Positions 1,238-12,440 of a stretch of DNA of 14,893 nt are shown one piece after another (the stretch's first letter is position 1; each line of letters begins with the position of its first letter). The stretch is taken from contig JAKSBO010000258.1 of assembly GCA_022361095.1 (NCBI GenBank), positions 1-14,893 of the forward strand. The letters are read 5' to 3'. The translations under genes were made by a program, and so were the position numbers. Below the pieces are notes generated by a model. It searched no databases. It was not told where the DNA came from and worked only from the letters and a program-made list of their open reading frames with translations. This DNA comes from Desulfobacterales bacterium (GTDB lineage Bacteria; Desulfobacterota; Desulfobacteria; Desulfobacterales; Desulfobacteraceae).

Positions 1238-1783
1238 ATGAAAGAAATTCTTATAAAGACGGTTATGACCCCCTTACCCAATTATGTGACCCTTAAGGAA
1301 ACGGACACCATTTATGATGTATTCCAGATTTTGGAACAAAATAAGTCCGAAGACCGTGAAGCCCACAGGGATGTCATTGTCGTTGATGACAACGGCAAGT
1401 TTAAGGGAAAAGTGACCATGCTTGATATCTTCAGAGCGCTTGAGCCCAATTATAAAAAAGTGTTCAAAACCTTTGGAGACGGGACACTGACTAAGGATTA
1501 TGTGATTAATGCCATCAGGGATTTCAACCTATGGATGGAGCCCATTCAAAATCTTTGTGAACGCGGGGCCAATATCAAGATTGCAGATGTCATGCATGTT
1601 CCTGCGGATCTTGAATATATTCAGGAGGACGATTCCCTGGAAAAAGCGCTGCATGAATATGTTATGGGCGTACACCAACCCCTGATCGTGAAAAATGGCG
1701 ACACAGTCACCGGTGTGCTTAGATTCTGTGATTTGTATGAAGTGATCCGGGAACGGATGCTGGCCTGCCCCGCCCCCGAATAA
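1238..1783 (+). CDS. CBS-domain pair protein
   Basis: Cytoplasmic protein of 181 residues consisting of little more than two CBS motifs (about 1-72 and 112-175). Each begins with a V/I-x-D-V-M or T-V-M-T-P type stretch (TVMTPLP near 8-14, IADVMHVP near 115-122) and ends with a G-x-V/L-T/R-x-x-D-L/I block (GKVTMLDIFRAL, GVLRFCDLYEVI). CBS pairs usually bind adenine nucleotides and act as energy or ligand sensors for a partner. No catalytic domain is attached, so the partner is unknown. The segment between the motifs (about 72-110) is aromatic and charged rather than a simple linker. The ATG at 1238 follows GAGGAG six bases upstream. It is a single gene convergent with the decarboxylase operon, and its TAA stop lies inside the repeat starting at 1780. 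Domain assignment firm, function unknown. Confidence 0.85.
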   Translation: MKEILIKTVMTPLPNYVTLKETDTIYDVFQILEQNKSEDREAHRDVIVVDDNGKFKGKVTMLDIFRALEPNYKKVFKTFGDGTLTKDYVINAIRDFNLWMEPIQNLCERGANIKIADVMHVPADLEYIQEDDSLEKALHEYVMGVHQPLIVKNGDTVTGVLRFCDLYEVIRERMLACPAPE

Positions 1784-1964: not shown

Positions 1965-3083
1965 TCACCCCCCTAAAAGGGTTAAAAAAATACCCGCGGC
2001 AATCACGGTACCGATCACACCAGCCACATTGGGTCCCATGGCATACATAAGCAGATAATTTTTCTTATCCGCTTCCATACCCACCTGATGAACCACCCTG
2101 GCAGCCATGGGTACGGCAGAGACACCGGCTGCGCCCAGCAAGGGATTGATTTTATTTTTGGAAAAAAGGTTCATGAGTTTGGCCAGAATCACCCCTGTCA
2201 TGGTTGAAACCACAAAGGCAAAAAGTCCTAAACAAAAAACAAATATCACCTGGGGCCTTAAAAAGTTCTCCGCATTCATGGTGGCCCCCACGGGCACCCC
2301 AAGAAAAATGGTGACAATATTCATCAGTTCATTCTGGGCGGCATCATTGAGACGATCAACCACCCCGGACTCCCTGAACAAATTACCCAGCATAAACATG
2401 GAGATCAACGGTGCGGATGCAGGCACCAGTAAGATGATGATGAAGGTGGAAACAATGGGGAACAAGGTCTTTTCAAGCTTACCCACCTTTCTGCCCTTGG
2501 CCATGCGGATTTTTCTTTCATCTGCGGTGGTCAAAAGTTTCATCACCGGGGGCTGGATAATGGGCACAAGGGCCATATAGGAATAGGCAGCCACGGCACA
2601 GGCCCCCAAAAGAGAGGGGGCCAGTTTGGATGCCAGGAATATGGTGGTGGGGCCGTCCGCCCCGCCGATGAGACCGATGGTTGCCGCCGCTTTCAGGTCA
2701 AACCCAAAGGCCTGGGCCGCAAAAAAGGTGATGTACACCCCGGCCTGGGCACCGGCACCAAGGAAAATCAGCCTGGGATTGGCAATGAGCGGCCCAAAAT
2801 CCGTGAGTGCCCCTAATCCTAAAAATATTACCGGCGGAATGATCTCCCAGTGGATACCATACTCGTAAAATTTCCAGAGCAGCCCTTCATGGGGGGTCAT
2901 AAGCCCTGCCAAAGGCAGGTTCACAAGAATAATCCCAAATCCGATGGGCAACAGCAAAAGCGGTTCATAGGACTTGCCGACAGCAAGGTAAATCAGGGTC
3001 AATCCAATGATCCACATCACCACAAGGCCCGGGGTAACATGAAACAGGCCCGTGGCCTGGAACAGGGAATACAAGGCATTCAT
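1965..3083 (-). CDS. gcdB: Glutaconyl-CoA decarboxylase beta subunit (Na+-pumping membrane subunit)
   Basis: Membrane subunit of the biotin-dependent decarboxylase sodium pumps (GcdB/OadB/MmdB family). It removes CO2 from carboxybiotin and couples this to Na+ export. The 372 residues are largely hydrophobic with many membrane segments, close to the about 375 of Acidaminococcus GcdB. Family signatures are visible: GGADGPTTIF at 140-149, with D143 matching the essential Asp of Klebsiella OadB (D203); NAENFLRP near 270; and GVSAVPMAAR at 320-329, where S322 and R329 keep the seven-residue spacing of the OadB pair S382/R389. The ATG at 3083 overlaps the previous stop by four bases, and GGGAGGGGG lies just upstream. 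It is the last gene of the operon. Sequence alone would also fit an oxaloacetate or methylmalonyl-CoA pump; the neighbours decide for glutaconyl-CoA. Confidence 0.92.
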   Translation of the reverse strand: MNALYSLFQATGLFHVTPGLVVMWIIGLTLIYLAVGKSYEPLLLLPIGFGIILVNLPLAGLMTPHEGLLWKFYEYGIHWEIIPPVIFLGLGALTDFGPLIANPRLIFLGAGAQAGVYITFFAAQAFGFDLKAAATIGLIGGADGPTTIFLASKLAPSLLGACAVAAYSYMALVPIIQPPVMKLLTTADERKIRMAKGRKVGKLEKTLFPIVSTFIIILLVPASAPLISMFMLGNLFRESGVVDRLNDAAQNELMNIVTIFLGVPVGATMNAENFLRPQVIFVFCLGLFAFVVSTMTGVILAKLMNLFSKNKINPLLGAAGVSAVPMAARVVHQVGMEADKKNYLLMYAMGPNVAGVIGTVIAAGIFLTLLGG

Positions 3084-3238
3084 TTGCCCCCTCCCTGCCC
3101 GGGTGCTTCCCTGGACTTCTTCCTGGACGCCAAAGCAGAGACGGCTGCTCCGGTAAGCTTGATGGAAAGATAAAGAAAAGCCATACCTGTGAATACCCCT
3201 AAAATACCGACGAGAAACACCCCTACCCCATCATCCAT
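3080..3238 (-). CDS. Small one-helix subunit of the decarboxylase pump (OadG/GcdD-like)
   Basis: A 52-residue gene, below common ORF cut-offs, filling the gap between the alpha and beta genes. It starts at ATG 3238, three bases after the alpha stop, with AAAGGGA-type sequence upstream, and its TGA overlaps the gcdB start (ATGA). Translation gives MDDGVG, then one hydrophobic segment (residues about 5-28: VFLVGILGVFTGMAFLYLSI), then KLTGAAVSALASRKK and a Gly/Lys tail. This layout (short acidic N-terminus, one membrane helix, polar C-tail) is that of the gamma/delta subunits (OadG, MmdD, GcdD) that hold the carboxyltransferase on the membrane beta subunit. Acidaminococcus GcdD is about 107 residues, so this is a minimal version. 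Function is inferred from position and topology, not from a firm sequence match. Confidence 0.8.
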   Translation of the reverse strand: MDDGVGVFLVGILGVFTGMAFLYLSIKLTGAAVSALASRKKSREAPGQGGGK

Positions 3239-3241
3239 GAT

Positions 3242-4999
3242 TTATTCCCTTTCCTTTGCGGCCGCATGATCCCGTATAATCCTGGGCAGAATCATCTGGT
3301 GCTGGGGGCAGATGGATTTGGGGTTCTGGTAGGCTGCGCCTGCAAAGGCCTGCATATAGTGCCGCAGGTCTGCAAGCCGTACCACCTCATCCACCATGCC
3401 GTGTTTTGCGCAATATAACGGGGTTGACGTCTCCTTGTATTTTTGGGCAAGGGCGTTCATCTTCTCCACCACGGGTTCAAGGTCCCGGCCGGCCTCCTTT
3501 TCCTTTACGAGCCGCCTGGCATAGGTCGCCACCGCAGCCGTCTCGCCATGCATCACACAGACTTCAGTGGCACAGGTGCCCAGGGTAAAGGCATTGTTCC
3601 GGTTGGCCTGGGGACCGCCCATGACATAGTGGGCGGCAGCCGTTCCCTTGCGCAAAACGGCAAGCATCATGGGAAGCCCGGACTGCTGGATGGAGTAGAC
3701 CAGGGACTGGCCCAAGCCTAAAAGCTCTGCTTTTTCGGCAATATCGCCCACATCAATACCGGAGGTGTCCTGGAACCAGATCACAGGGATCCTGTCCCTG
3801 CCGCAAAGGGTCACAAACTCATTCATTTTAAGCAGCCCCTGGCGGTAAAGCTTGGCGCCCATACCGGGATAATCGGCGTATTCGGGATACCCCTTGCCAA
3901 GGTATCCCTGGCGGTTGCCGATGCAGGCCACAAGCAAACCGTCCACCTTGCAAAGCCCGGTGTAAACTTCCGGGCCGTAGCCGGGGCGATATTCCATGTG
4001 CTCGGAACCGTCCACAAGCCTTGCTAAAATATCGTCAAAATCATACACGGTCTTGGAGGCGATAGGCAGCAGCCGCATGACTTCTTGGGCGTCAAACCCA
4101 GGCGCTTTCGGCTCGGTTACCCTGAAAAATTCAGGATCGTAAGCCGGCAGCTTTTTCATATAATCTCTTACACCGTCCAGCACCTCTTTTTCCTCCTTGT
4201 ACACAAAGCGGAAAAAACCGGTGTGGTCATAATGGGTGGTCACGGATCCGGGCGGTCTTTCCCTGTGTTCCTTGGCTTTTTGAACCAAAGCCTCAGCCAT
4301 CTCCACGGTAAATCCGCCCTGGGGGGCCATGCCGCTGACAATGCCGGCACCGCCCACAGCCATGTTGCATTTCTCATGGGCAAACAAAACCGTAGGGCTG
4401 ATGGACTGGTAACCGCCGCCGGCAGGGTTGGTGCCGTAAATGGCCGCAAGCACCGGAATACCCTCCTGCTCAAGTTCCGCATGCCGGAAAAACGGGGTAC
4501 CCGAACCCCTTCGGTTGGCATAAAATTTTTCCTGTTCGGTCAGCTTGGCCCCGCTGCAATTGACCAGCCAGACCAACGGGATATTGAGCCTTTCGGCAAG
4601 GTCCGTGGCCCGCAGAATATTCTCGGACTGACCGGCCAGCCAGGCCCCGGCCATGACTTTATTGTCAAACCCGATCACAACCGCCCATTTGCCGGCAATT
4701 TTACCAAGGCCGTCAATCACATTGGTGGTGCCCTCAATATTATCCGCCGGATTATAAAGCGTATGAAGCGGGGTCCAGGTTCCCGGATCCACGATATATT
4801 CCAGGCGCTGCCATACGGTCATCTGGCCGCGCTGGTTGATCTTTTCTTCGGAAAGGCCAAGATGTTTAACTTCGTCAACGGCGGCTAAAATCTTGTTTTC
4901 CGCCTCAAGCACCTGTTCATAATTGCTCTGGGTACGTTTTATGGTCCCCTTTTTAAGTGCTTTGCCAAAGGGCGTCATGTTTTCAAAATAGGATTTCAT
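3242..4999 (-). CDS. gcdA: Glutaconyl-CoA decarboxylase alpha subunit (carboxyltransferase)
   Basis: Carboxyltransferase that moves the CO2 of glutaconyl-CoA onto the biotin of the carrier protein, giving crotonyl-CoA. At 585 residues it almost equals the 587 of Acidaminococcus fermentans GcdA. It has two crotonase-fold carboxyltransferase halves in one chain. The N half carries AGQSENILRATDLAERL (122-138), NPAGGGYQS (191-199) and GGAGIVSG (216-223), typical acyl-CoA/oxyanion stretches. The C half has IGNRQGYLGKG and VLRKGTAAAHYVMGGPQ. The distinctive N-terminal extension (1-90) favours GcdA over propionyl/methylcrotonyl-CoA carboxylase beta subunits. ATG 4999 is preceded by AAGGAA. It is separated from the upstream carrier gene by a 124-bp inverted-repeat element, whereas the downstream small subunit follows after three bases. 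Confidence 0.93.
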   Translation of the reverse strand: MKSYFENMTPFGKALKKGTIKRTQSNYEQVLEAENKILAAVDEVKHLGLSEEKINQRGQMTVWQRLEYIVDPGTWTPLHTLYNPADNIEGTTNVIDGLGKIAGKWAVVIGFDNKVMAGAWLAGQSENILRATDLAERLNIPLVWLVNCSGAKLTEQEKFYANRRGSGTPFFRHAELEQEGIPVLAAIYGTNPAGGGYQSISPTVLFAHEKCNMAVGGAGIVSGMAPQGGFTVEMAEALVQKAKEHRERPPGSVTTHYDHTGFFRFVYKEEKEVLDGVRDYMKKLPAYDPEFFRVTEPKAPGFDAQEVMRLLPIASKTVYDFDDILARLVDGSEHMEYRPGYGPEVYTGLCKVDGLLVACIGNRQGYLGKGYPEYADYPGMGAKLYRQGLLKMNEFVTLCGRDRIPVIWFQDTSGIDVGDIAEKAELLGLGQSLVYSIQQSGLPMMLAVLRKGTAAAHYVMGGPQANRNNAFTLGTCATEVCVMHGETAAVATYARRLVKEKEAGRDLEPVVEKMNALAQKYKETSTPLYCAKHGMVDEVVRLADLRHYMQAFAGAAYQNPKSICPQHQMILPRIIRDHAAAKERE

Positions 5000-5029
5000 T
5001 TATTTTTCCTTAATGTCGAACCGAACCCC

Positions 5030-5153
5030 GTGTTTGGCCAAAAAGTTACCCGGATGCAAGGCGCAGAAAAATTTTCAACCGGCGCATACCGACGTATATG
5101 AGGATTGCAAATTTTGCTTCAACGCCCAGGTGGGGGACTTTTCGGTCAAACAC
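5030..5153. repeat. Imperfect inverted-repeat (REP/MITE-like) element inside the operon
   Basis: The ends are inverted copies: GTGTTTGGCCAAAAAGT at 5030-5046 and, read on the other strand, GTGTTTGACCGAAAAGT at 5153-5137, 15 of 17 matching. Weaker symmetry continues inward (GCGCAGAAAAATTT against GTTGAAGCAAAATTT) to a centre near 5091 (CATACCGACGTATATG). The whole could fold as one long hairpin. No coding capacity and no clear target-site duplication. It occupies most of the 153-bp gap between gcdC and gcdA in an otherwise compact operon and touches the carrier stop codon. I have an uncertain memory of similar CGTCGGTAT-centred repeats in other Desulfobacteraceae. Confidence 0.75.
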
Positions 5154-5368
5154 TAATCGATAACTGCCAAAAGGTCATCCTCTTCCACCGCATCTCCCTC
5201 CTTGACCACGATTTTGGATACGGTGCCGGAGCAAGGCGCAAATACGGGCGTTTCCATTTTCATGGCTTCGATCACCAAAACTTCGTCATCCTCTTCTATT
5301 GTTGCCCCCGGTTCAACGCTTAAACTGACAATTTTTCCGGACAGGGGAGCTAATACGTCTTCAGACAT
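5153..5368 (-). CDS. gcdC: Biotin carrier subunit of glutaconyl-CoA decarboxylase
   Basis: Free-standing biotinyl domain of 71 residues that shuttles carboxybiotin from the alpha carboxyltransferase to the membrane beta subunit. The biotinylation motif EAMKMETP is at about 34-41, with K37 the modified lysine, 34 residues before the C-terminus as is usual. The start was chosen at ATG 5368 because GGAGGT (5373-5378) stands four bases upstream; the longer open frame to 5437 would overlap the dehydrogenase gene and add residues without family resemblance. It lacks the Pro/Ala-rich linker and N-terminal part that make Acidaminococcus GcdC about 145 residues, so it is a minimal carrier. It lies 20 bases after the dehydrogenase stop. 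A lipoyl carrier is unlikely because of the MKM context. Confidence 0.92.
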   Translation of the reverse strand: MSEDVLAPLSGKIVSLSVEPGATIEEDDEVLVIEAMKMETPVFAPCSGTVSKIVVKEGDAVEEDDLLAVID

Positions 5369-5388
5369 GCCGACCTCCTTTTTAAAAA

Positions 5389-6552
5389 CTATCTGTTTGC
5401 TTTTCTGATACCCAACTGATCCAGGGCAATAATCCACTTACATATATTTGCGGAACCCTCCACCATGGCATAGGTGGGCGCATCCCGGTAGTAGCGGGCC
5501 ACGGGATATTCAGTGGAATAACCGTAGGCACCCAGAATCCTCATGGCGTAGTTGGCGCATTTATAGGCCACTTCGCCGGCCATATATTTAGCCATGGCCA
5601 CATCCATGCCGTTGTTCAATCGCCCCTGATCCTTGGCCCAGGCCGCTTTGTAAACAAGCAGGCGAGCGGCTTCGATTTCCGTGGCCATCTGGGCGATCAT
5701 ATCCTGGTTCATCTGGAATTCGCCGATCTTTTTGCCGAACTGTTTTCTCTGATTGCAGTATTTTACGGCTTCGTCCAGACAGGCCTGGGCCAATCCCACG
5801 CCGCCTGCCGCTGCAGACAAACGGGTCTGATTCAAAGATGAAAATACAATTTTAGCACCATCGCCGGGTTTGCCAAGGATATTTTCCTTGGGTACCTTAA
5901 CATTATCCAAAAACAGTTCACCTGTGGGAGAAGAGTGGGAGCCCAGCTTGTCCAGGGAAGAGGTTGTGACGCCGTCAAAATTTTTGGGTTCAATCACAAA
6001 GGCGGACAGCCCCTTGGAACCGGCAGATTTATCCGTATAGGCGTAGTATAGCATACAGTCCGCCACATCGGCATTGGAGATCCAGGTTTTACTGCCGTTG
6101 AGCAGCCAGTGGCCGCCTTTATCTTCGGCAGTAGAAGCAATGTTCATGACATCGGAACCGGCATCCGGTTCAGTGATGCCAAACCCGCCGATGTATTCGG
6201 CGGTGCACAATTTTTCCACATATTTTTTGCGGACCGCGTCATTGCCGTATTGATAAATGGCGTATGCACACCCCAGCACCTGCATATTCACCTGGACCCG
6301 CAAAGAAGACGACGCCTTGGCCAATTCTTCGGTCACAACCATGGCCGCCAGAAAGCCCAAATCTTCTCCGCCGTACTCTTCGGGAATCACGGTGCCGAAA
6401 TACCCCATTTCACCCAGAGGACGCATCACCTCTTTAATCGGCAGATAGTGTTCCTCATCCCACTGGTCTGCAAAGGGAACGATCTCTTTTTTTGCAAATT
6501 TCCGCAGCTCTTTCCGGAGCATTTGCAACTCTTTGCTTAATTCAAAATCCAT
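5389..6552 (-). CDS. Glutaryl-CoA dehydrogenase, nondecarboxylating type (acyl-CoA dehydrogenase family)
   Basis: FAD-dependent acyl-CoA dehydrogenase, 387 residues, first gene of the operon; ATG 6552 follows GGGGAG six bases away. Family blocks are present: GGFGITEPDAGSD near 122-134, GSKTWISNADVADC near 153-166, and the C-terminal RYYRDA...EGSANI. E365 is the expected catalytic base. Arg85 (in SSSLRVQVN) aligns with human glutaryl-CoA dehydrogenase Arg94, which holds the substrate carboxylate. The residues aligned with human Glu87 and Tyr369 are Ala78 and Val364. From memory, replacement of Tyr369 by Val is a mark of the nondecarboxylating Desulfococcus enzyme. It would therefore release glutaconyl-CoA for the decarboxylase encoded downstream. 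Electrons would go to electron-transfer flavoprotein, not encoded here. Another short-chain acyl-CoA dehydrogenase is possible but the operon argues against it. Confidence 0.88.
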   Translation of the reverse strand: MDFELSKELQMLRKELRKFAKKEIVPFADQWDEEHYLPIKEVMRPLGEMGYFGTVIPEEYGGEDLGFLAAMVVTEELAKASSSLRVQVNMQVLGCAYAIYQYGNDAVRKKYVEKLCTAEYIGGFGITEPDAGSDVMNIASTAEDKGGHWLLNGSKTWISNADVADCMLYYAYTDKSAGSKGLSAFVIEPKNFDGVTTSSLDKLGSHSSPTGELFLDNVKVPKENILGKPGDGAKIVFSSLNQTRLSAAAGGVGLAQACLDEAVKYCNQRKQFGKKIGEFQMNQDMIAQMATEIEAARLLVYKAAWAKDQGRLNNGMDVAMAKYMAGEVAYKCANYAMRILGAYGYSTEYPVARYYRDAPTYAMVEGSANICKWIIALDQLGIRKANR

Positions 6553-6820: not shown

Positions 6821-7594
6821 TCAGGCCGCTTTTGAGGCGCCTTCAAGGGGAACCACCAGGGGGTAGCCCTTATGCCGGATAATTTCAACCGGCAGTCCGT
6901 AAACCTTTGTAAGCAGATCTGAGCGGATCTCTTCAATTTTTCCCGCCCCGAACACGGTGTGACTTTTTAGGCAGATATACCGGTCCGCATACCGCAAGGC
7001 CGAGTTCAGGTCATGCATGGTCATGATCACCGCAAGGTTGTGGTCCTGTGCAATATCCCGGACAAGCGTTAATATCCGTGTCTGATTTTTTAAGTCCAGA
7101 CTGGAGGTCGGTTCGTCCAGCAGCAGAATATCGGTCTCCTGGACCAGGGCCCTGGCAATGGCCACCTGCTGCAGTTCACCGCCGGAGAGTTCATACAAAT
7201 TTTTAAGGGCCATGTGGGTCAGGTTCAGATGGTCCAGCACCGACCCGGTCTTTGTCAGATCTTCTTTGGCGGCCGTAAACCGGATATGGGGGTAGCGGCC
7301 CATGAGCACGGCGTCAAACACCGTAATTTTACCGGCTTCATGGTGCTGGGCCACATAACTGATCTCCTTTGCAATCCGGCGGATATCCATGGTTTTCAAC
7401 GGTTGGCCCTTCACATCTATCCGGCCCGTTGACGGGGTTAAAATTTTATTGAGGCATTTAAGCAATGTGGTTTTCCCCACGCCGTTGGGCCCTAATATTA
7501 CGGTGATCTCACCCCGGGGGACGGAAAAACTGATGTCCTCAAGAATTTTAACGGATTTATATCTAAAATCAACTTGGTTAACGGTCAGAATCAT
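6821..7594 (-). CDS. ABC importer ATPase (FepC/BtuD family)
   Basis: Cytoplasmic ATPase, 257 residues, powering the importer encoded with it. All nucleotide-binding motifs are intact: Walker A GPNGVGKT 35-42, Q-loop Gln83, signature LSGGE 136-140, Walker B ILLLDEP 156-162, D-loop SSLD 164-167, and H-loop His194. The sequence is typical of iron-siderophore, heme and cobalamin (class II) importers. The ATG at 7594 overlaps the permease stop by four bases (ATGA), so the two are translationally coupled. It is the last gene of the three-gene importer operon, followed by the terminator at 6740-6777. The C-terminal 30 or so residues after the core are short and have no extra domain. Confidence 0.93.
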   Translation of the reverse strand: MILTVNQVDFRYKSVKILEDISFSVPRGEITVILGPNGVGKTTLLKCLNKILTPSTGRIDVKGQPLKTMDIRRIAKEISYVAQHHEAGKITVFDAVLMGRYPHIRFTAAKEDLTKTGSVLDHLNLTHMALKNLYELSGGELQQVAIARALVQETDILLLDEPTSSLDLKNQTRILTLVRDIAQDHNLAVIMTMHDLNSALRYADRYICLKSHTVFGAGKIEEIRSDLLTKVYGLPVEIIRHKGYPLVVPLEGASKAA

Positions 7595-8661
7595 CTGGAA
7601 TTGCCTTTAATAATAAGGTAAATAAAAACCGGTGTCCCTAAAAATGCGGTAAAAATCGAGACCGGCAGTACATGGGGCAGCATAACAAGACGCGCCGTCA
7701 TATCTGCTGCCAGAAGAATCAAGGCCCCGGCCAGAATGGATGCCGGCAGCAGGAACCTGTGGTCATCACCGATGATGCGCCGCACAATATGGGGGGCGGC
7801 CAGCCCCACAAAACTGATAATGCCCACAAAGCTGATGATCAAAGCCGTCATCAAAGAGGCGGCCAGCATACCGGAAAGCCGGACCCATTCCACCCGTATG
7901 CCGATGCCTTTGGCACTTTCATCCCCAAGGGCCATGCCGTTGTAGTCCCTTGATTTCACCAGGAAAAAACCTAACAACCCAAGCACAACCGGGGTTACCA
8001 GCGCAATGTCGTTCCAGTCCGCCCTGGCCAGATCCCCGAAGGTCCAGAAGACCATGGCCGCCAGTTGCACATCATCGGCAAAAAACTGCAGGAACATTGT
8101 TCCGGCGGTAAAAAGGGAACCCAATGCCACCCCGGTGAGCACCATGATCTGGGGAGATGCCCCTTTTCTGCCGGATATAAAAATAATAATCAGCGCAGTG
8201 ATAATGGAAAATGAAAATGCCGTTGCCACGGTGATTACCGGATTTGAAACGGCCACGGCATCAACCGAAGACGATGCCATCACCCCGGTCCCCATGATGA
8301 TCACGGACAACGCCGCCCCGAATGCCGCCGCATGGGAAATGCCCAAAGTAAAAGGTGACGCCAAAGGATTTTTCAATACCGACTGCATCACGGCACCGGA
8401 AACAGCCAGGCCTGCCCCGCCTAAAACGGCAATGACGGTCTGGGGCAGACGGATATTCCATATGATGAGGCCGGCCTTTCGGGACGGGGCTTCTAGTATT
8501 AATGTCTGCACCACGTCAATTAAGGGAAGCTTTACCGAACCTTTGGATAAAGAGATGAGAAACAATACGGCCATCAGGCTGAACAAGGCGAACAGCAGCC
8601 ATGATTTTTTGCGGATATACCCGGCATAGGCCTTGGGTACCGCACCATGATCAAAGTGCAT
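7591..8661 (-). CDS. ABC importer permease (FecCD/BtuC family)
   Basis: Inner-membrane permease of a class II metal-chelate importer, 356 residues, with about nine to ten hydrophobic segments. The first begins near residue 21 after a charged N-terminus. FecCD signatures are visible: RLPQTVIAVLGGAGLAVSGAVMQ near 72-94, NPLASPFTLGIS near 98-109, and the late GIISFVGLAAPHIVRRIIGDDHR block near 278-300, which carries the coupling helix that contacts the ATPase. ATG 8661 begins five bases after the binding-protein stop. The nearest good Shine-Dalgarno (AGGAG, 8674-8678) is about 12 bases away, inside the previous gene, so translational coupling is likely. Only one permease gene is present, implying a homodimer. 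The substrate (iron chelate, corrinoid, or an oxyanion as in MolBC) cannot be read from the sequence. Confidence 0.92.
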   Translation of the reverse strand: MHFDHGAVPKAYAGYIRKKSWLLFALFSLMAVLFLISLSKGSVKLPLIDVVQTLILEAPSRKAGLIIWNIRLPQTVIAVLGGAGLAVSGAVMQSVLKNPLASPFTLGISHAAAFGAALSVIIMGTGVMASSSVDAVAVSNPVITVATAFSFSIITALIIIFISGRKGASPQIMVLTGVALGSLFTAGTMFLQFFADDVQLAAMVFWTFGDLARADWNDIALVTPVVLGLLGFFLVKSRDYNGMALGDESAKGIGIRVEWVRLSGMLAASLMTALIISFVGIISFVGLAAPHIVRRIIGDDHRFLLPASILAGALILLAADMTARLVMLPHVLPVSIFTAFLGTPVFIYLIIKGNSR

Positions 8662-8666
8662 ACCCT

Positions 8667-9770
8667 TTATTTCGCTCCTAAATCAACAGGTTTGAATGCC
8701 TTGTTCCGGAACAGGGCATCCATCTCTGCATAGACTTTGGCCGATAACAGAAATTCATAAATTTCATCCGCTTTTCCGGCCGGGTCCACATCGGCAAACC
8801 GGTCGGGATAAAGCACCTTACCCACATACCAGGCATCGGCCAGGATGGAACCGAAATTGCGGGTGTACCAGTTATATGGCAGCACCCCGTATACCCGGCC
8901 ATTTGCCACGGCATCCAGGGCCTGTAATACGGGATCTGTCTTCAACTCATAAAGCCCGCCATGGCCCTCCCCCATCTGCAGGGTGGAAAGGTCCAGAAAC
9001 AACACCTGGGGATTTTCATCCAGCAGTTTTTCTTTGGAAAACGTTGAATGGGATAAATTTTGCACTTTAACGTCCGATGCCCTTGCAATATTGGCGGCAT
9101 TCACAAAGGCGAAGGGCGGATAACCGGGTTCTGTGGACAAAAATCCATGGGGGCCTTTATGGGCAATGCCACCGACAAAACACGTTTTTTTATTTTCAAC
9201 GGCTGCGGTACGCCGGTTGAGTTCTGCGATCTGCCCGTCAAAAAAGCCGATCAATGCATCTGCCCGTTCCTGCCGGTCCAGCACCTGGCCGATGATGCGA
9301 AGACTTTTGTAGATCACATCCCTTTGAACGGCAAGATTACCGTATCCCAGCACCACCACCGGGGTATCCGTTTTCTTTGACAATTCAACCGGGTCATACC
9401 CCATGGTGGCATAGGTTTTAAAAATGACCTGGGGCGGTGTTGCAAGCCCCAGAATTTTTTCAGGATCATCGTTGCCCCTGAACTCCCCGAATACCGGCAG
9501 TTTTTTGTACCTAGGATTGGCAATGGCATAGGGCCTTGCATCAAACTGTTTTCTGGCCGTCTCCATATCATCCACCGCCACCACCAGTTCCTGGGCATTG
9601 AAATAAGTGATCAGGCGCAAAGCCCCCGGGCCCGAACAAATGATGCGGCTGACCTGGTCCGGTACCGAAACGGTATTACCCGTGCTGTCCACAATATTTT
9701 TTGCATTTGCCGGAAAAACCGATAAGCTCAGGAACAAAAAGCCCCATAAAAATGCAGGTTTTATCTTCAT
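8667..9770 (-). CDS. Periplasmic substrate-binding protein of the importer (FecB/BtuF-like)
   Basis: Exported binding protein that delivers substrate to the permease, 367 residues. The start was chosen at ATG 9770: it has AAGGAG at 9776-9781 and gives a clean signal peptide (MKIK, a hydrophobic core, likely cleavage after FPANA near residue 23). A longer GTG start at 9797 would lie in the terminator hairpin. No lipobox cysteine, so it should be soluble in the periplasm. The mature part opens with IVDSTGNTVSVPDQVSRIIC, the usual start of the class III (FecB/BtuF) fold, then a helix-linked second lobe. The block GGIAHKGPHGFLSTEPGYPPF (near 200-220) resembles a subgroup usually labelled iron or metal-complex binding in anaerobes and archaea; its ligand is not certain. 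First gene of the importer operon. Confidence 0.9.
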   Translation of the reverse strand: MKIKPAFLWGFLFLSLSVFPANAKNIVDSTGNTVSVPDQVSRIICSGPGALRLITYFNAQELVVAVDDMETARKQFDARPYAIANPRYKKLPVFGEFRGNDDPEKILGLATPPQVIFKTYATMGYDPVELSKKTDTPVVVLGYGNLAVQRDVIYKSLRIIGQVLDRQERADALIGFFDGQIAELNRRTAAVENKKTCFVGGIAHKGPHGFLSTEPGYPPFAFVNAANIARASDVKVQNLSHSTFSKEKLLDENPQVLFLDLSTLQMGEGHGGLYELKTDPVLQALDAVANGRVYGVLPYNWYTRNFGSILADAWYVGKVLYPDRFADVDPAGKADEIYEFLLSAKVYAEMDALFRNKAFKPVDLGAK

Positions 9771-9786
9771 TTCAACTCCTTGAAAT

Positions 9787-9846
9787 AAAAAAGCCACAAA
9801 GGTCCGCCGCCTTTAAAAAAAGGATTCCGGTATGCCTTCGTGGCTT
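9787..9846 (-). terminator. Terminator-like hairpin just before the binding-protein gene (attenuator candidate)
   Basis: On the minus strand AAGCCACGAAGG (9846-9835) pairs with CCTTTGTGGCTT (9802-9791) over 12 positions with one G-U, and is followed by a T6 run (9792-9787). An inner hairpin, CCTTT/AAAGG, spans 9810-9823. The stem ends only six bases before the Shine-Dalgarno site of the binding-protein gene, downstream of the promoter at 9949-9977. It cannot serve an upstream gene alone without also affecting this operon, which suggests conditional termination. Confidence 0.75.
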
Positions 9847-9861
9847 AAATTTTATATGTAT

Positions 9862-9930
9862 GGCAAAGTTTACTTAGTGCCTGAACGAAAACTTACGGTT
9901 TCCGGCCGGGCACAACTTTTATGGCTGCCT
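9862..9930 (-). ncRNA. Folded 5' leader of the importer operon, riboswitch-like, class unknown
   Basis: Between the promoter and the terminator hairpin, the leader RNA can form a nested stem: AAAGTT (9919-9914) with AACTTT (9870-9865), GTGCC (9913-9909) with GGCAC (9881-9877), and CGGAAAC (9904-9898) with GTTTTCG (9892-9886) around a five-base loop. GGC/GCC segments outside could extend it. I compared it by memory with cobalamin, Moco, TPP, glycine, c-di-GMP and NiCo motifs and see no match. With the terminator hairpin downstream it has the shape of an aptamer plus expression platform. Confidence 0.5.
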
Positions 9931-9948
9931 TCAAACAGCGTTACGCCC

Positions 9949-9977
9949 ATCCTATTGAACAGGCAATCAAGTGTCAA
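9949..9977 (-). promoter_or_regulatory. Near-consensus sigma-70 promoter of the ABC importer operon
   Basis: On the minus strand a perfect -35 box TTGACA (9977-9972) is separated by exactly 17 bases from TAGGAT (9954-9949). A transcript would start near 9942, giving a leader of about 170 bases before the ATG at 9770. It is the best promoter match in the window. Confidence 0.8.
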
Positions 9978-9984
9978 CAGGCTG

Positions 9985-10013
9985 TTACGGAATACGGCAC
10001 CTTCCGTCCGTAA
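9985..10013 (-). terminator. Hairpin after dgcN, possible weak terminator
   Basis: TTACGGA (9985-9991) pairs with TCCGTAA (10007-10013), with an inner CGG/CCG and a three-base bulge. It lies 31 bases after the dgcN stop and just upstream of the importer -35 box. No T run follows, so termination would be inefficient or factor-dependent. Confidence 0.35.
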
Positions 10014-10043
10014 AAATGTTCAATGGCCCTTTTGCAGGATGCC

Positions 10044-11156
10044 CTATCTTATTGCGGGATTGTGCGTGTCGATGAAGGCCCTGACGACGGGCAACAGCAT
10101 TGATATATCATCGTCCAGGGGATCAAAAACCGGCAGTTGCGTGGTTGCCTTCAGTTGCCGTGCATACCGCACAAGGTCTTCCCGGCTGCCGCCTTCACCG
10201 TTCAGCGTCACGGCAATGACCTTTGCCCCGTACATTTCAATGAGCTTGATCTCATCCTCGACCTTGGGCAGGCGGCAGCCAAAAGCCTCCACCGTGTCAA
10301 AACATTTCCTGAAAGGCGTATGCTGCAGGATCACCCCCTTTGCATTGCCGGACACAATCAATTCCGCGCCGCAGGGGCCCAAGGGGTTACGCAGCGCGGA
10401 CTGTCCTTCAAGAATCATGAGATCCGGGTTTGATTTTTCCGCACATTCAACAATGGCCGCTTCAAGCTCGCCGCAGACAAAATCATTGGGGGTGGCATCC
10501 AGAATAAATCCGTATGGGGAGCCCTGGAGCCACCCGGTCTGCCCGGTGAAAATCATTTCCGTTTTGATTGCATTTGACCGGCACATCTGCATCAGCATCC
10601 TGCTGGTGGTCCGTTTACCCACTGCACAGTCCGTGCCCAGCACGGCGATTTTAGGCGCGGCAACCTCAAAGACTTGTCCGGTCCAGTATTTTAGCCGGCC
10701 AAAGGGCTTGCTGCGCCTGAAATCAATGATCTCAACATTGTATTTTTCGGCGGCGGCCTTGAACGCCGGGATATCCGATAGCGGCATATGCAGTCCGTTT
10801 ACAATGGAAATCCCCTGGGACATGACATCCAAGACAAGGGCCTGCCAATCGTCATCCAGGCGTCCCCCGCACAGGGCCACCCCGATCACCGCATAATCCG
10901 GGGTTGTGCCGGTGGCCCCGGTGAATGCCTCGACACTTGAAAAAATAGGAATGTCCCTTTGGGTACCGTCCAGTACAACACCGGCATCCTTGCCGGCGTT
11001 CACCTCATCAATGACGCCCATAATCCTGAACCGTTCGGTTCCCCGCACAAGACCGTGGGCGGTTTTGGCACCATTGAGGTGGAACAGGCCCTTGGTCAGG
11101 ACCACGGCGGTTCCCATATAAATCCCGTTCGTATTTTCTTTGTAAGTTGGGTTCAT
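10044..11156 (-). CDS. dgcN: DUF1611 family protein, probable D-glutamate N-acetyltransferase (DgcN type)
   Basis: Cytoplasmic protein, 370 residues, of the DUF1611 family. Characterised members (DgcN) acetylate D-glutamate to N-acetyl-D-glutamate. The N part (about 14-150) has TKGLFHLNGAKTAHGLVRGTERFRIMGVID and a VIGVALCGGRL strand-loop. The C part holds a P-loop-like GTDCAVGKRTT at 174-184, then LILEGQSALRNP-type residues (MILEGQSAL) and a GCRLPKVEDEI stretch. The ATG at 11156 has no clear Shine-Dalgarno; an internal ATG at 11117 (residue 14) has GGGA nearby and begins where the family similarity begins, so the protein may be 357 residues. It follows the dgcA-type gene on the same strand after 216 bases that contain two palindromic repeats. 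Family firm; activity inferred from the pairing with DgcA. Confidence 0.82.
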   Translation of the reverse strand: MNPTYKENTNGIYMGTAVVLTKGLFHLNGAKTAHGLVRGTERFRIMGVIDEVNAGKDAGVVLDGTQRDIPIFSSVEAFTGATGTTPDYAVIGVALCGGRLDDDWQALVLDVMSQGISIVNGLHMPLSDIPAFKAAAEKYNVEIIDFRRSKPFGRLKYWTGQVFEVAAPKIAVLGTDCAVGKRTTSRMLMQMCRSNAIKTEMIFTGQTGWLQGSPYGFILDATPNDFVCGELEAAIVECAEKSNPDLMILEGQSALRNPLGPCGAELIVSGNAKGVILQHTPFRKCFDTVEAFGCRLPKVEDEIKLIEMYGAKVIAVTLNGEGGSREDLVRYARQLKATTQLPVFDPLDDDISMLLPVVRAFIDTHNPAIR

Positions 11157-11319: not shown

Positions 11320-11374
11320 GTTGTGGGTCAAAGCCTGGGTGTCGATAGACCAAAATCGGCCCATGGCCGTTATT
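11320..11374 (+). repeat. Partial, diverged copy of the same repeat, R3
   Basis: Begins GTTGTGGG and ends CCCATGGCCGTTATT, like the half of the repeat nearest the stop codon. About 41 of 54 aligned columns match R1 with two one-base gaps. It lies in tandem with R2, same orientation, and its end overlaps the dgcA stop codon, as R1 overlaps the CBS gene stop. The AATTTTTATAAG half is missing. Confidence 0.65.
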
Positions 11375-12440
11375 AAAGGATGCGGACTCCCAATCCCGGC
11401 CGATCCGTCAGGCGCATTACGCCGTCTTCAATGACAAACCCCTCATCCACCATATCCCTGGCAAGATCCAGACTGCCGTCAAGGTCCAGGTACCGGGTGG
11501 CCGGGCTTGCAAAGGCGGCATGCAGGGCCGCGGCAATGCTTACACGGCTTTCGTCCATACACCCCCACATCAATCCGATGCTGCAACGGCGGGCGATCTG
11601 GGCAATTTCCAGACCCTGTGCAATGCCGCCGCATTTCATCAGTTTGATGTTGAACAATCCAAAGGGCCGGGGCGGATGGAGTAAGGCATAGGCCTGGGCA
11701 GGGTTGTGCAGACTCTCGTCAGCCATGGAAAAACTGCGTGCATCTTCGGAGAGCTCTGCCATGGCAGCAGTCCGGTCCACATGGAGGGGCTGCTCCACAA
11801 ATTCCAGATCCGCGTTCCTTGTGCCTGCCAGAAATTTTTTATACTGCGCCATATCATATCCCTGATTGGCGTCCACCCGGATGCGGACATCGCTGCTGAC
11901 ATGCGCCTTGAGGCGGCAGACCCGTTCGACATCCTGATCCGCATCCATGCCTGTTTTTACCTTAAGAATCCTGAATCCCCGCCCGGTATATTCGTCCGCT
12001 TCGGCCAGCATTTCGTCAAGATTTTTAATGCCGATGGTGATGGATGTGGGCATGGCGGTGTGCACCTGCCCCAGGATCTCCACCAGGGGACGGTCCAGGG
12101 CCTTGCCCATGAGATCATACAGGGCAATATCCATGGCGGCCATGGCAGCAGGCGTTGCCGCCATCTTTGTTTCCATGATTTTAAGCCGGGAAACCGCATC
12201 GGACAGATCCATGCCGTCAAAAAGGTCGCATGCCTCCTCTTTCAGCGCCTTCTCACAGGCATCAATACTTTCATTGGTAACATCTTCAGCCGGTGCCCCT
12301 GCCCCGATACCCACAAGCCCCGTGTCCGTTTCAAGGAGAACAAACACATTTTCCGCATGGGTAAAGGTATCGTAGGCAATGGTGTAAGGCCGCGTTAACT
12401 CCAGATTCTCCCTGGAAATTGTCACTTTTTTTATTTTCAT
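11373..12440 (-). CDS. dgcA: Enolase-superfamily epimerase/racemase (DgcA or dipeptide-epimerase type)
   Basis: Cytoplasmic Mg2+-dependent enzyme, 355 residues, of the muconate-lactonizing subgroup of the enolase superfamily. The N-terminal capping domain (1-125) is followed by the barrel with every expected residue: KVK 160-162 (two-base pair with the Lys of NIKL, 266), metal ligands D190 (DANQGYD), E216 (EQPL) and D241 (DES). DLDG at 319-322 resembles the Asp-x-Asp that binds the amino group in L-Ala-D/L-Glu epimerases. Next to a DUF1611 gene the likely job is racemising N-acetyl-D-glutamate to the L form (DgcA). The Asp-x-Asp keeps murein-dipeptide epimerisation open. ATG 12440 has AGGTGA at 12447-12452. 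Divergent from the amidohydrolase gene across 153 bases. Superfamily certain, substrate not. Confidence 0.82.
   Translation of the reverse strand: MKIKKVTISRENLELTRPYTIAYDTFTHAENVFVLLETDTGLVGIGAGAPAEDVTNESIDACEKALKEEACDLFDGMDLSDAVSRLKIMETKMAATPAAMAAMDIALYDLMGKALDRPLVEILGQVHTAMPTSITIGIKNLDEMLAEADEYTGRGFRILKVKTGMDADQDVERVCRLKAHVSSDVRIRVDANQGYDMAQYKKFLAGTRNADLEFVEQPLHVDRTAAMAELSEDARSFSMADESLHNPAQAYALLHPPRPFGLFNIKLMKCGGIAQGLEIAQIARRCSIGLMWGCMDESRVSIAAALHAAFASPATRYLDLDGSLDLARDMVDEGFVIEDGVMRLTDRPGLGVRIL

Follow-up and report, generated by a model that had tools for sequence, protein, structure and literature searches.

A predicted leader RNA family with an NGAA-loop hairpin and a terminator ahead of metal-uptake genes in Desulfobacterales

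The importer operon found in the 14,893-nucleotide stretch of Desulfobacterales DNA analysed here (the window; contig JAKSBO010000258.1) raises the question why a transcription terminator should be placed between a promoter and the first gene of the same operon. The original prediction had described a promoter, a nested three-tier stem, a 12-pair hairpin with a T6 run, a Shine-Dalgarno sequence and an ATG, and had taken them for a conditional-terminator leader RNA of unrecognised class. The promoter, the 12-pair hairpin with T6, the Shine-Dalgarno sequence and the ATG are all present on the minus strand, from 9977 to 9770, together with further landmarks of the locus:

9949..9977, minus strand: promoter, with -35 TTGACA (9977-9972), a 17-base spacer and -10 TAGGAT (9954-9949)
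9924..9939, minus strand: H1, the 5'-end hairpin GCUGUU-UGAA-GGCAGC (covariance model match 9943-9787)
9876..9914, minus strand: 39-base REP-like dispersed repeat within the linker (matches in the own genome; missing from sister leaders)
9847..9875, minus strand: rest of the linker, AT-rich by sequence
9834..9844, minus strand: H2, GCC-ACGAA-GGC, predicted second NGAA-type hairpin that excludes the terminator (A4 column pair 122-132)
9791..9846, minus strand: intrinsic terminator stem, 12 outer pairs plus an inner stem (arms 9846-9835/9802-9791; fold -25.2 kcal/mol)
9787..9792, minus strand: terminator T6 run, by sequence
9776..9781, minus strand: Shine-Dalgarno AAGGAG, by eye, with the ATG at 9770
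8667..9770, minus strand: periplasmic binding protein (Peripla_BP_2) of an ABC importer, by domain match
7591..8661, minus strand: FecCD-type permease, by domain match
6821..7594, minus strand: importer ABC ATPase, by domain match

The 12-pair hairpin consists of AAGCCACGAAGG (9846-9835) paired with CCTTTGTGGCTT (9802-9791) and is followed by T6 (9792-9787); a simple terminator scan, which covered loops of 3-8 only, did not list it. The leader of the window folds better than 200 of 200 shuffled sequences (z -3.69), and the promoter of the window, taken alone, does not exceed chance (1 occurrence, with 1.3 expected from shuffles). The binding protein has 2etv as its nearest solved relative by sequence (E 1.4e-72), which is annotated as a putative iron(III) ABC transporter protein and does not settle the substrate of the importer. 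Upstream of the leader, on the same strand, lie DUF1611 (DgcN-like) and enolase-superfamily (DgcA/epimerase-like) genes (10044-11156 and 11373-12440), both far below the NCBIfam cut-offs. Inspection by eye of 1965-6552 (minus strand) revealed a biotin-dependent decarboxylase-like cluster with membrane beta subunit, carboxyltransferase and biotin carrier, and an acyl-CoA dehydrogenase.

The three-tier stem, in which the original prediction had seen the sensing fold of a riboswitch, is present as sequence and appears in the predicted fold, but its core (9914-9876) is a repeat insertion of this species, and a role as aptamer is not supported. The 39-base stretch is missing in the orthologous leaders L010-L015 and L017 of the same genus, which run from H1 to the terminator without it, and when the whole leader was searched against the own genome, 11 non-self matches were obtained at E<=0.01, all of which overlap 9914-9876, as do 33 of the 42 matches at E<=10; seven of these repeat loci were re-aligned to the insert. 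Moreover, a different long near-perfect palindrome occupies the same linker in the sister genome G018 (L016, 2618-2804, minus strand). Since the core is found elsewhere in the genome, is missing from orthologous leaders and has a different palindrome in its linker in G018, we give an aptamer role of this stem almost no credence.

The conserved part of the leader was sought through orthologs of the binding protein in 59 genomes, 47 of which gave some match at E<=0.001. The covariance model R1 finds the element at 20 of the 22 orthologous loci of at least 49% identity (the window and L010-L030), a figure to be read as a count and not as a test, R1 having been built from 17 of those 22 loci and six pattern hits. 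At L016, R1 took a part of the inserted palindrome for H1; L028 shows the element by eye, with a long linker, and L030 the terminator only. At three loci of 42% identity (L031-L033) R1 gave no match within the sequence stretch available. Conserved pairing across orthologous leaders, which the original prediction had proposed as a check, was indeed found: an MAFFT alignment (A1) contains 26 covariation cells against 9.6 after shuffling, and the 48 sequences of A3, which were aligned to R1 and are hence biased to its structure, contain 90 against a shuffled mean of 21.9, with changes on both sides in 11 of 18 pairs. All six pairs of H1 show two-sided changes in A3, while its loop reads GAA in 48 of 48 rows with U, A or C as first base ([UAC]GAA), in the form NGAA in 46 rows and ANGAA in two. 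Judged from these alignments, H1 covaries strongly and keeps its NGAA loop while the sequence of the stem varies freely. The linker measures about 27-79 nt across sites by a rough count, and the predicted architecture of the family is a 5'-end hairpin H1, a variable linker and a terminator.

A search of Rfam 15 at gathering score gave no match in the window and none in nine motif loci; at 20 motif loci none was found at the motif, the only match being a TPP riboswitch elsewhere in L133. The latter (1542-1635, plus strand), itself above gathering score, lies on the strand opposite to the leader. A permissive scan of 9650-10060 returned seven matches far below the gathering scores (best E 0.49; trpB best by score, a plant microRNA by E-value), which were taken as chance. 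The window leader thus matches no known Rfam class, as had been anticipated, and we regard it, on these comparisons, as one copy of a conserved RNA family missing from Rfam 15. Among the papers listed in literature searches, no title or abstract opening describes the element. The gcsH motif has been reported from two Desulfobacteraceae genera, in a paper whose main text gave no nickel, cobalt or TonB in a word search (PMC11109978).

The position of the promoter is a property of the family. TTGAC occurs within 60 nt upstream of the motif at 92 of 111 distinct sites, and at -33 to -41 at no fewer than 83 of the 111, whereas it was found anywhere in only 111 of 1994 random 60-nt control windows. 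Because of this position, H1 is expected at the very 5' end of the transcript and the terminator inside it; in the window, H1 begins about 3 nt past the start expected from the promoter. The reading as a conditional terminator of unrecognised class is accordingly supported by covariation, by the upstream promoter and by the lack of an Rfam match.

The two arms of the terminator are conserved to a different degree. In A4, comprising 104 distinct rows from the kept sites, the 5' arm CCAYGAAGG is nearly invariant and the 3' arm drifts via G-U pairs and mismatches, a contrast that is in part due to ascertainment since the rows were found with a model rewarding consensus on both arms. The near invariance of the 5' arm beside a drifting 3' arm suggests a second job for the former. 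In another reading, the hairpin would be a plain terminator that shields the importer from transcription arriving from upstream, and H1 would be a palindromic DNA operator located at the start site. We hold this to be very unlikely. H1 does form an inverted repeat near the promoter and intergenic terminators are common, but the promoter lies upstream of the terminator, the arms are unequally conserved, and H1 keeps its pairing and loop but not its sequence, the opposite of what an operator would do.

The second job might be an alternative hairpin. The nearly invariant 5' arm of the window's terminator, CCACGAAGG, can refold into H2 (9844-9834), which excludes the terminator; in the family the 5' arm alone folds as RCC-AYGAA-GGY, carrying the H1 loop plus one A (loop A[CU]G[AG]A). 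The H2 pair of A4 columns 122-132 forms in 103 of 104 rows (GC 63, AU 28, GU 12, AG 1), column 132 lying outside the modelled terminator pairs, and the association of the two columns (Fisher 4e-16) comes from related sequences that are not independent and partly follows gene type and descent. On A3, the covariation score of H2 is reached by 1 of 500 shuffles; two of the five shuffle measures are no better than chance, namely two-sided change (1 of 5 pairs, reached by 485 of 500 shuffles) and further pair types (equalled in 435 of 500). Of the 48 rows of A3, 24 and 16 can form the two outer pairs. On A4, the stem has a mean length of 3.77, compared with 3.47 (sd 0.07) after shuffling, where the maximum among 2000 shuffles was 3.80. 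H2 as predicted is a short hairpin of three firm pairs whose outer pairs are weakly supported. The leader shows what is looked for in an attenuator or riboswitch, a conserved covarying structure joined to an expression platform, with an alternative fold of three firm pairs only. Over 106 sites, the terminator state is on average 13.4 kcal/mol better than the H2 state; therefore the default would be off, and read-through would need a helper.

NGAA-type hairpins also occur outside H1 and H2. Extra copies lie directly upstream of H1 at L106, L108, L114 and L128 and further from it at L111, L121, L134 and L173 (raw tallies without control), and the terminator apex carries an (A)NGAA loop at 31 of 106 sites (likewise a raw count without control), the apex of the window's own terminator having none. 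These modular copies suggest a factor that recognises the loop, as a protein might. In L106, L108 and L114, which come from more distant genomes, the extra hairpin is GGTTC-TGAA-GAACC or close to it. Desulfonema magnum has two tandem leaders (L130, 1801-1906 and 1955-2063, plus strand, the same as L225, 4300-4405 and 4454-4562, plus strand), which lie upstream of genes for an FmdE-like protein and a TonB-type receptor. L109 (1501-1599, plus strand) and L110 (1501-1599, minus strand) have H2 and an NGAA-type terminator apex with, by eye, a promoter-like TTGACA at the place of H1, and are possible H1-less variants.

Building on the computed family, the covariation of H1 and terminator, the short terminator-excluding H2, the promoter position and the gene neighbourhood, we propose with moderate confidence that the leader is an attenuator of a new RNA family in which termination is the default and, under shortage of nickel (or cobalt), is lifted by a factor that binds NGAA hairpins. 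Transcription would start just ahead of H1, and by default the strong terminator would form, so that the polymerase stops before the importer genes. Under shortage of the metal, most likely nickel and otherwise cobalt, a trans-acting factor, most likely an RNA-binding protein, would bind hairpins with (A)NGAA loops, H1 first and then H2 on its emergence; H2, held folded, would block the 5' arm of the terminator and allow read-through. The existence of the factor, its protein nature, the direction of the response and nickel as the signal are what we infer here. Transcription of the importer genes is probably decided by the leader.

The chief rival mechanism is a true riboswitch, in which Ni2+, Co2+ or a metal chelate would bind the paired hairpins directly and set the choice between H2 and terminator without a protein. 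This is possible, and we rate it as rather unlikely. The family precedes metal-uptake genes in genomes where NikR is mostly not found, and only the loops and H2 are conserved, for which the guanidine-II riboswitch offers a precedent of a sparse aptamer with variable linker. On the other hand, no conserved defined core is seen, the linker varies over the range given above, the first base of the H1 loop varies so that loop-loop complementarity is not evident, and the H1 stem is free in sequence; moreover, if the metal held H2, more metal would mean more uptake, which is the less expected direction. Hairpins with short NGAA loops at variable spacing would suit an antitermination element bound by a protein no less well than an aptamer for a ligand. 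Among the upstream neighbours no RNA-binding regulator was evident by eye in the 14 largest clusters, the nearest being a CBS-domain-like protein at six loci. The gene for this protein, likewise recognised by eye, stands upstream of the leader in L145, L163, L167, L174, L175 and L184.

Many sulfate reducers and related bacteria carry the element. At E<=0.01, R1 gives a match in 177 of the order's 291 genomes, and R2, at E<=1e-4 with strict filters, matches 22 of 395 genomes of the phylum sample, of which 8 belong to the 17 that the sample lists under the order. Named carriers are Desulfobacter latus, Desulfosarcina widdelii, Desulfonema magnum and Desulforapulum autotrophicum, and a genome-wide DNA pattern search gave 35 stretches, mostly under Desulfobacterales names. 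The own genome holds a second good copy (L116, 2492-2606, plus strand, contig C565; 52.2 bits) ahead of another FecCD permease at the contig end and a doubtful third one (L117, 43.8 bits). A pattern match in an Acidobacteriota MAG (L204) was rejected as chance, H1 and promoter being missing by eye and the model giving no match. In a MAG labelled as Actinobacteria, a match of 52.7 bits (L215, 1947-2053, plus strand) lies ahead of a gene that by eye resembles a NikA-type binding protein; its H1 is imperfect and the bin may be misassigned.

The genes behind the leader were compared at 112 sites, kept out of 138 matches after dropping 26 (antisense to the terminator palindrome, weak, or one tandem copy, L130 1955-2063); they come from other loci and from 80 fetched regions, which were hand-chosen mostly among the best listed matches and not at random. 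The first gene within 800 nt belongs to DUF4198/NikK at 26 plus 3 sites, to the binding protein at 20, TonB receptor at 9, CbiM at 5, FecCD at 4, LbtU porin at 4 and other recurrent families at 27, with none at 14, the families having been defined on the same 112 sites and some contigs ending early. Within 7 kb of the leader, CbiM occurs at 27 sites, NikL at 22 and CbiQ at 21. The family names rest on one representative each, binding protein and FecCD being named from the window; the representative of NikL, a nickel/cobalt ECF subunit, scored above cut-off, and CbiM, CbiQ, DUF4198, LbtU porin, DUF3842, FmdE, methyltransferase, TonB plug, ExbB, ExbD and DUF3450 were named as well. Taken together, the 112 sites mainly precede NikK(DUF4198)-CbiM-NikL-CbiQ-CbiO, TonB receptors and binding protein-FecCD importers. 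The converse search, over 76 genomes, listed 58 NikK matches; among the best 30 of these, 23 have the motif directly upstream (E<=0.01), and none of those 23 loci was in A3.

DUF3842 genes repeatedly follow the leader (L139, L154, L146, L123, L105), together with a methyltransferase in L154 and L146, and are candidate orphan members of a metal-uptake pathway. FmdE recurs directly after the leader or behind importer genes (L132, L136, L138, L151, L182); the one scanned, from L132, carries a dksA/traR-type zinc finger.

The expectation that the leader would reveal the substrate of the importer was borne out in part, in that the other genes of the family are mostly of nickel/cobalt uptake type. 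Nickel is not proven as the signal, since the name of CbiM refers to cobalt transport and that of FmdE to an enzyme of molybdenum. Cobalt, for which CbiM speaks, is the chief alternative, and some NikK1ML1QO operons are reported to adjoin B12 genes or to follow B12 riboswitches (PMC2667541).

The distribution of NikR, which usually serves as nickel repressor, was compared with that of the leader. Sulfate reducers without NikR are expected to need much nickel for their hydrogenases and CO dehydrogenase. A search for NikR (PF08753) gave matches in 4 of the 291 genomes from the order and in 182 of the 395 that make up the phylum sample. None of 32 motif genomes had a match, while 5 of 14 named genomes searched as a control did. 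Beyond the order, NikR is present in 2 of 14 motif genomes compared with 180 of 364 genomes without a motif match (Fisher 0.012, the figure to use; 0.0004 without two atypical sites, as a sensitivity check only). Inside the order, 1 of 177 motif genomes and 3 of 114 others have it, which is not significant; one of these three, G073, has a weak R2 match ahead of its NikK gene (L240, 31.5 bits). All these contrasts are confounded by descent. NikR and motif occur together in G018, G419, G658 and, weakly, G073. The motif sites of G419 and G658, which may be variants, lack a standard H1: L109 has TTGAC at the place of H1, and L111 has a hairpin with an AGAA loop about 34 nt further upstream. In G018 the NikR-type match adjoins genes that by eye resemble urea-carboxylase-associated ones.

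A wider, more tentative proposal, to which we lend somewhat less than even credence, is that the whole order replaced NikR by RNA-based nickel control, in which one NGAA-hairpin leader family would switch NikKMLQO, TonB receptors, ExbBD and FecCD-type importers by antitermination via an undescribed metal-sensing RNA-binding protein or riboswitch. If true, this would explain the control of nickel uptake in sulfate reducers without NikR, and would tie orphan genes (DUF3842, FmdE, methyltransferases, LbtU porins, TonB receptors and the FecCD importer of the window) into one metal regulon. The leader hairpins would offer a simple RNA bait for catching an undescribed RNA-binding metalloregulator or riboswitch.

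Among known systems, the NiCo riboswitch (RF02683) resembles the present element in the control of Ni/Co-related genes by RNA; it differs in that the targets here are importers and that Rfam gives no match at the motif. RF02683 matched neither the window nor any of 32 motif genomes, and since the control genomes were silent as well, its genome-wide absence is not proven by this search. The guanidine-II (mini-ykkC) riboswitch also consists of two small hairpins with conserved loops and a variable linker, but its loop is ACGR closed by G-C, whereas NGAA/ANGAA closed mostly by C-G is found here, with no Rfam match.

A like architecture is that of the dual-hexaloop elements of eut leaders bound by ANTAR response regulators (PMC8934654): a 5' hairpin and a second, like hairpin in the 5' arm of a terminator, with mutually exclusive folds and read-through on binding. 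Indeed, the second hairpin of our leader overlaps the 5' arm of the terminator in the same manner. However, two hexaloops with A1 and G4 are not found, the loops being NGAA/ANGAA of 4-5 bases, and the linkers are long and variable, whereas 20 additional nt abolished EutV antitermination (PMC8934654). An ANTAR domain was found in 21 of 32 motif genomes, with no match in the other 11, including the window's own (G000), nor in 14 control genomes. An ANTAR-protein target, which we had considered, was rejected on the differing loops and the genomes without the domain, and we hold it to be highly improbable. NikR, too, acts on operons of the nikKMLQO kind, and its DNA sites have been predicted upstream of nik operons in the delta-proteobacteria Geobacter, Desulfuromonas, Desulfovibrio and Desulfotalea (PMC545781). 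Unlike the leader RNA it is a DNA-binding repressor, and within the order in which the RNA occurs it was found in only 4 of 291 genomes.
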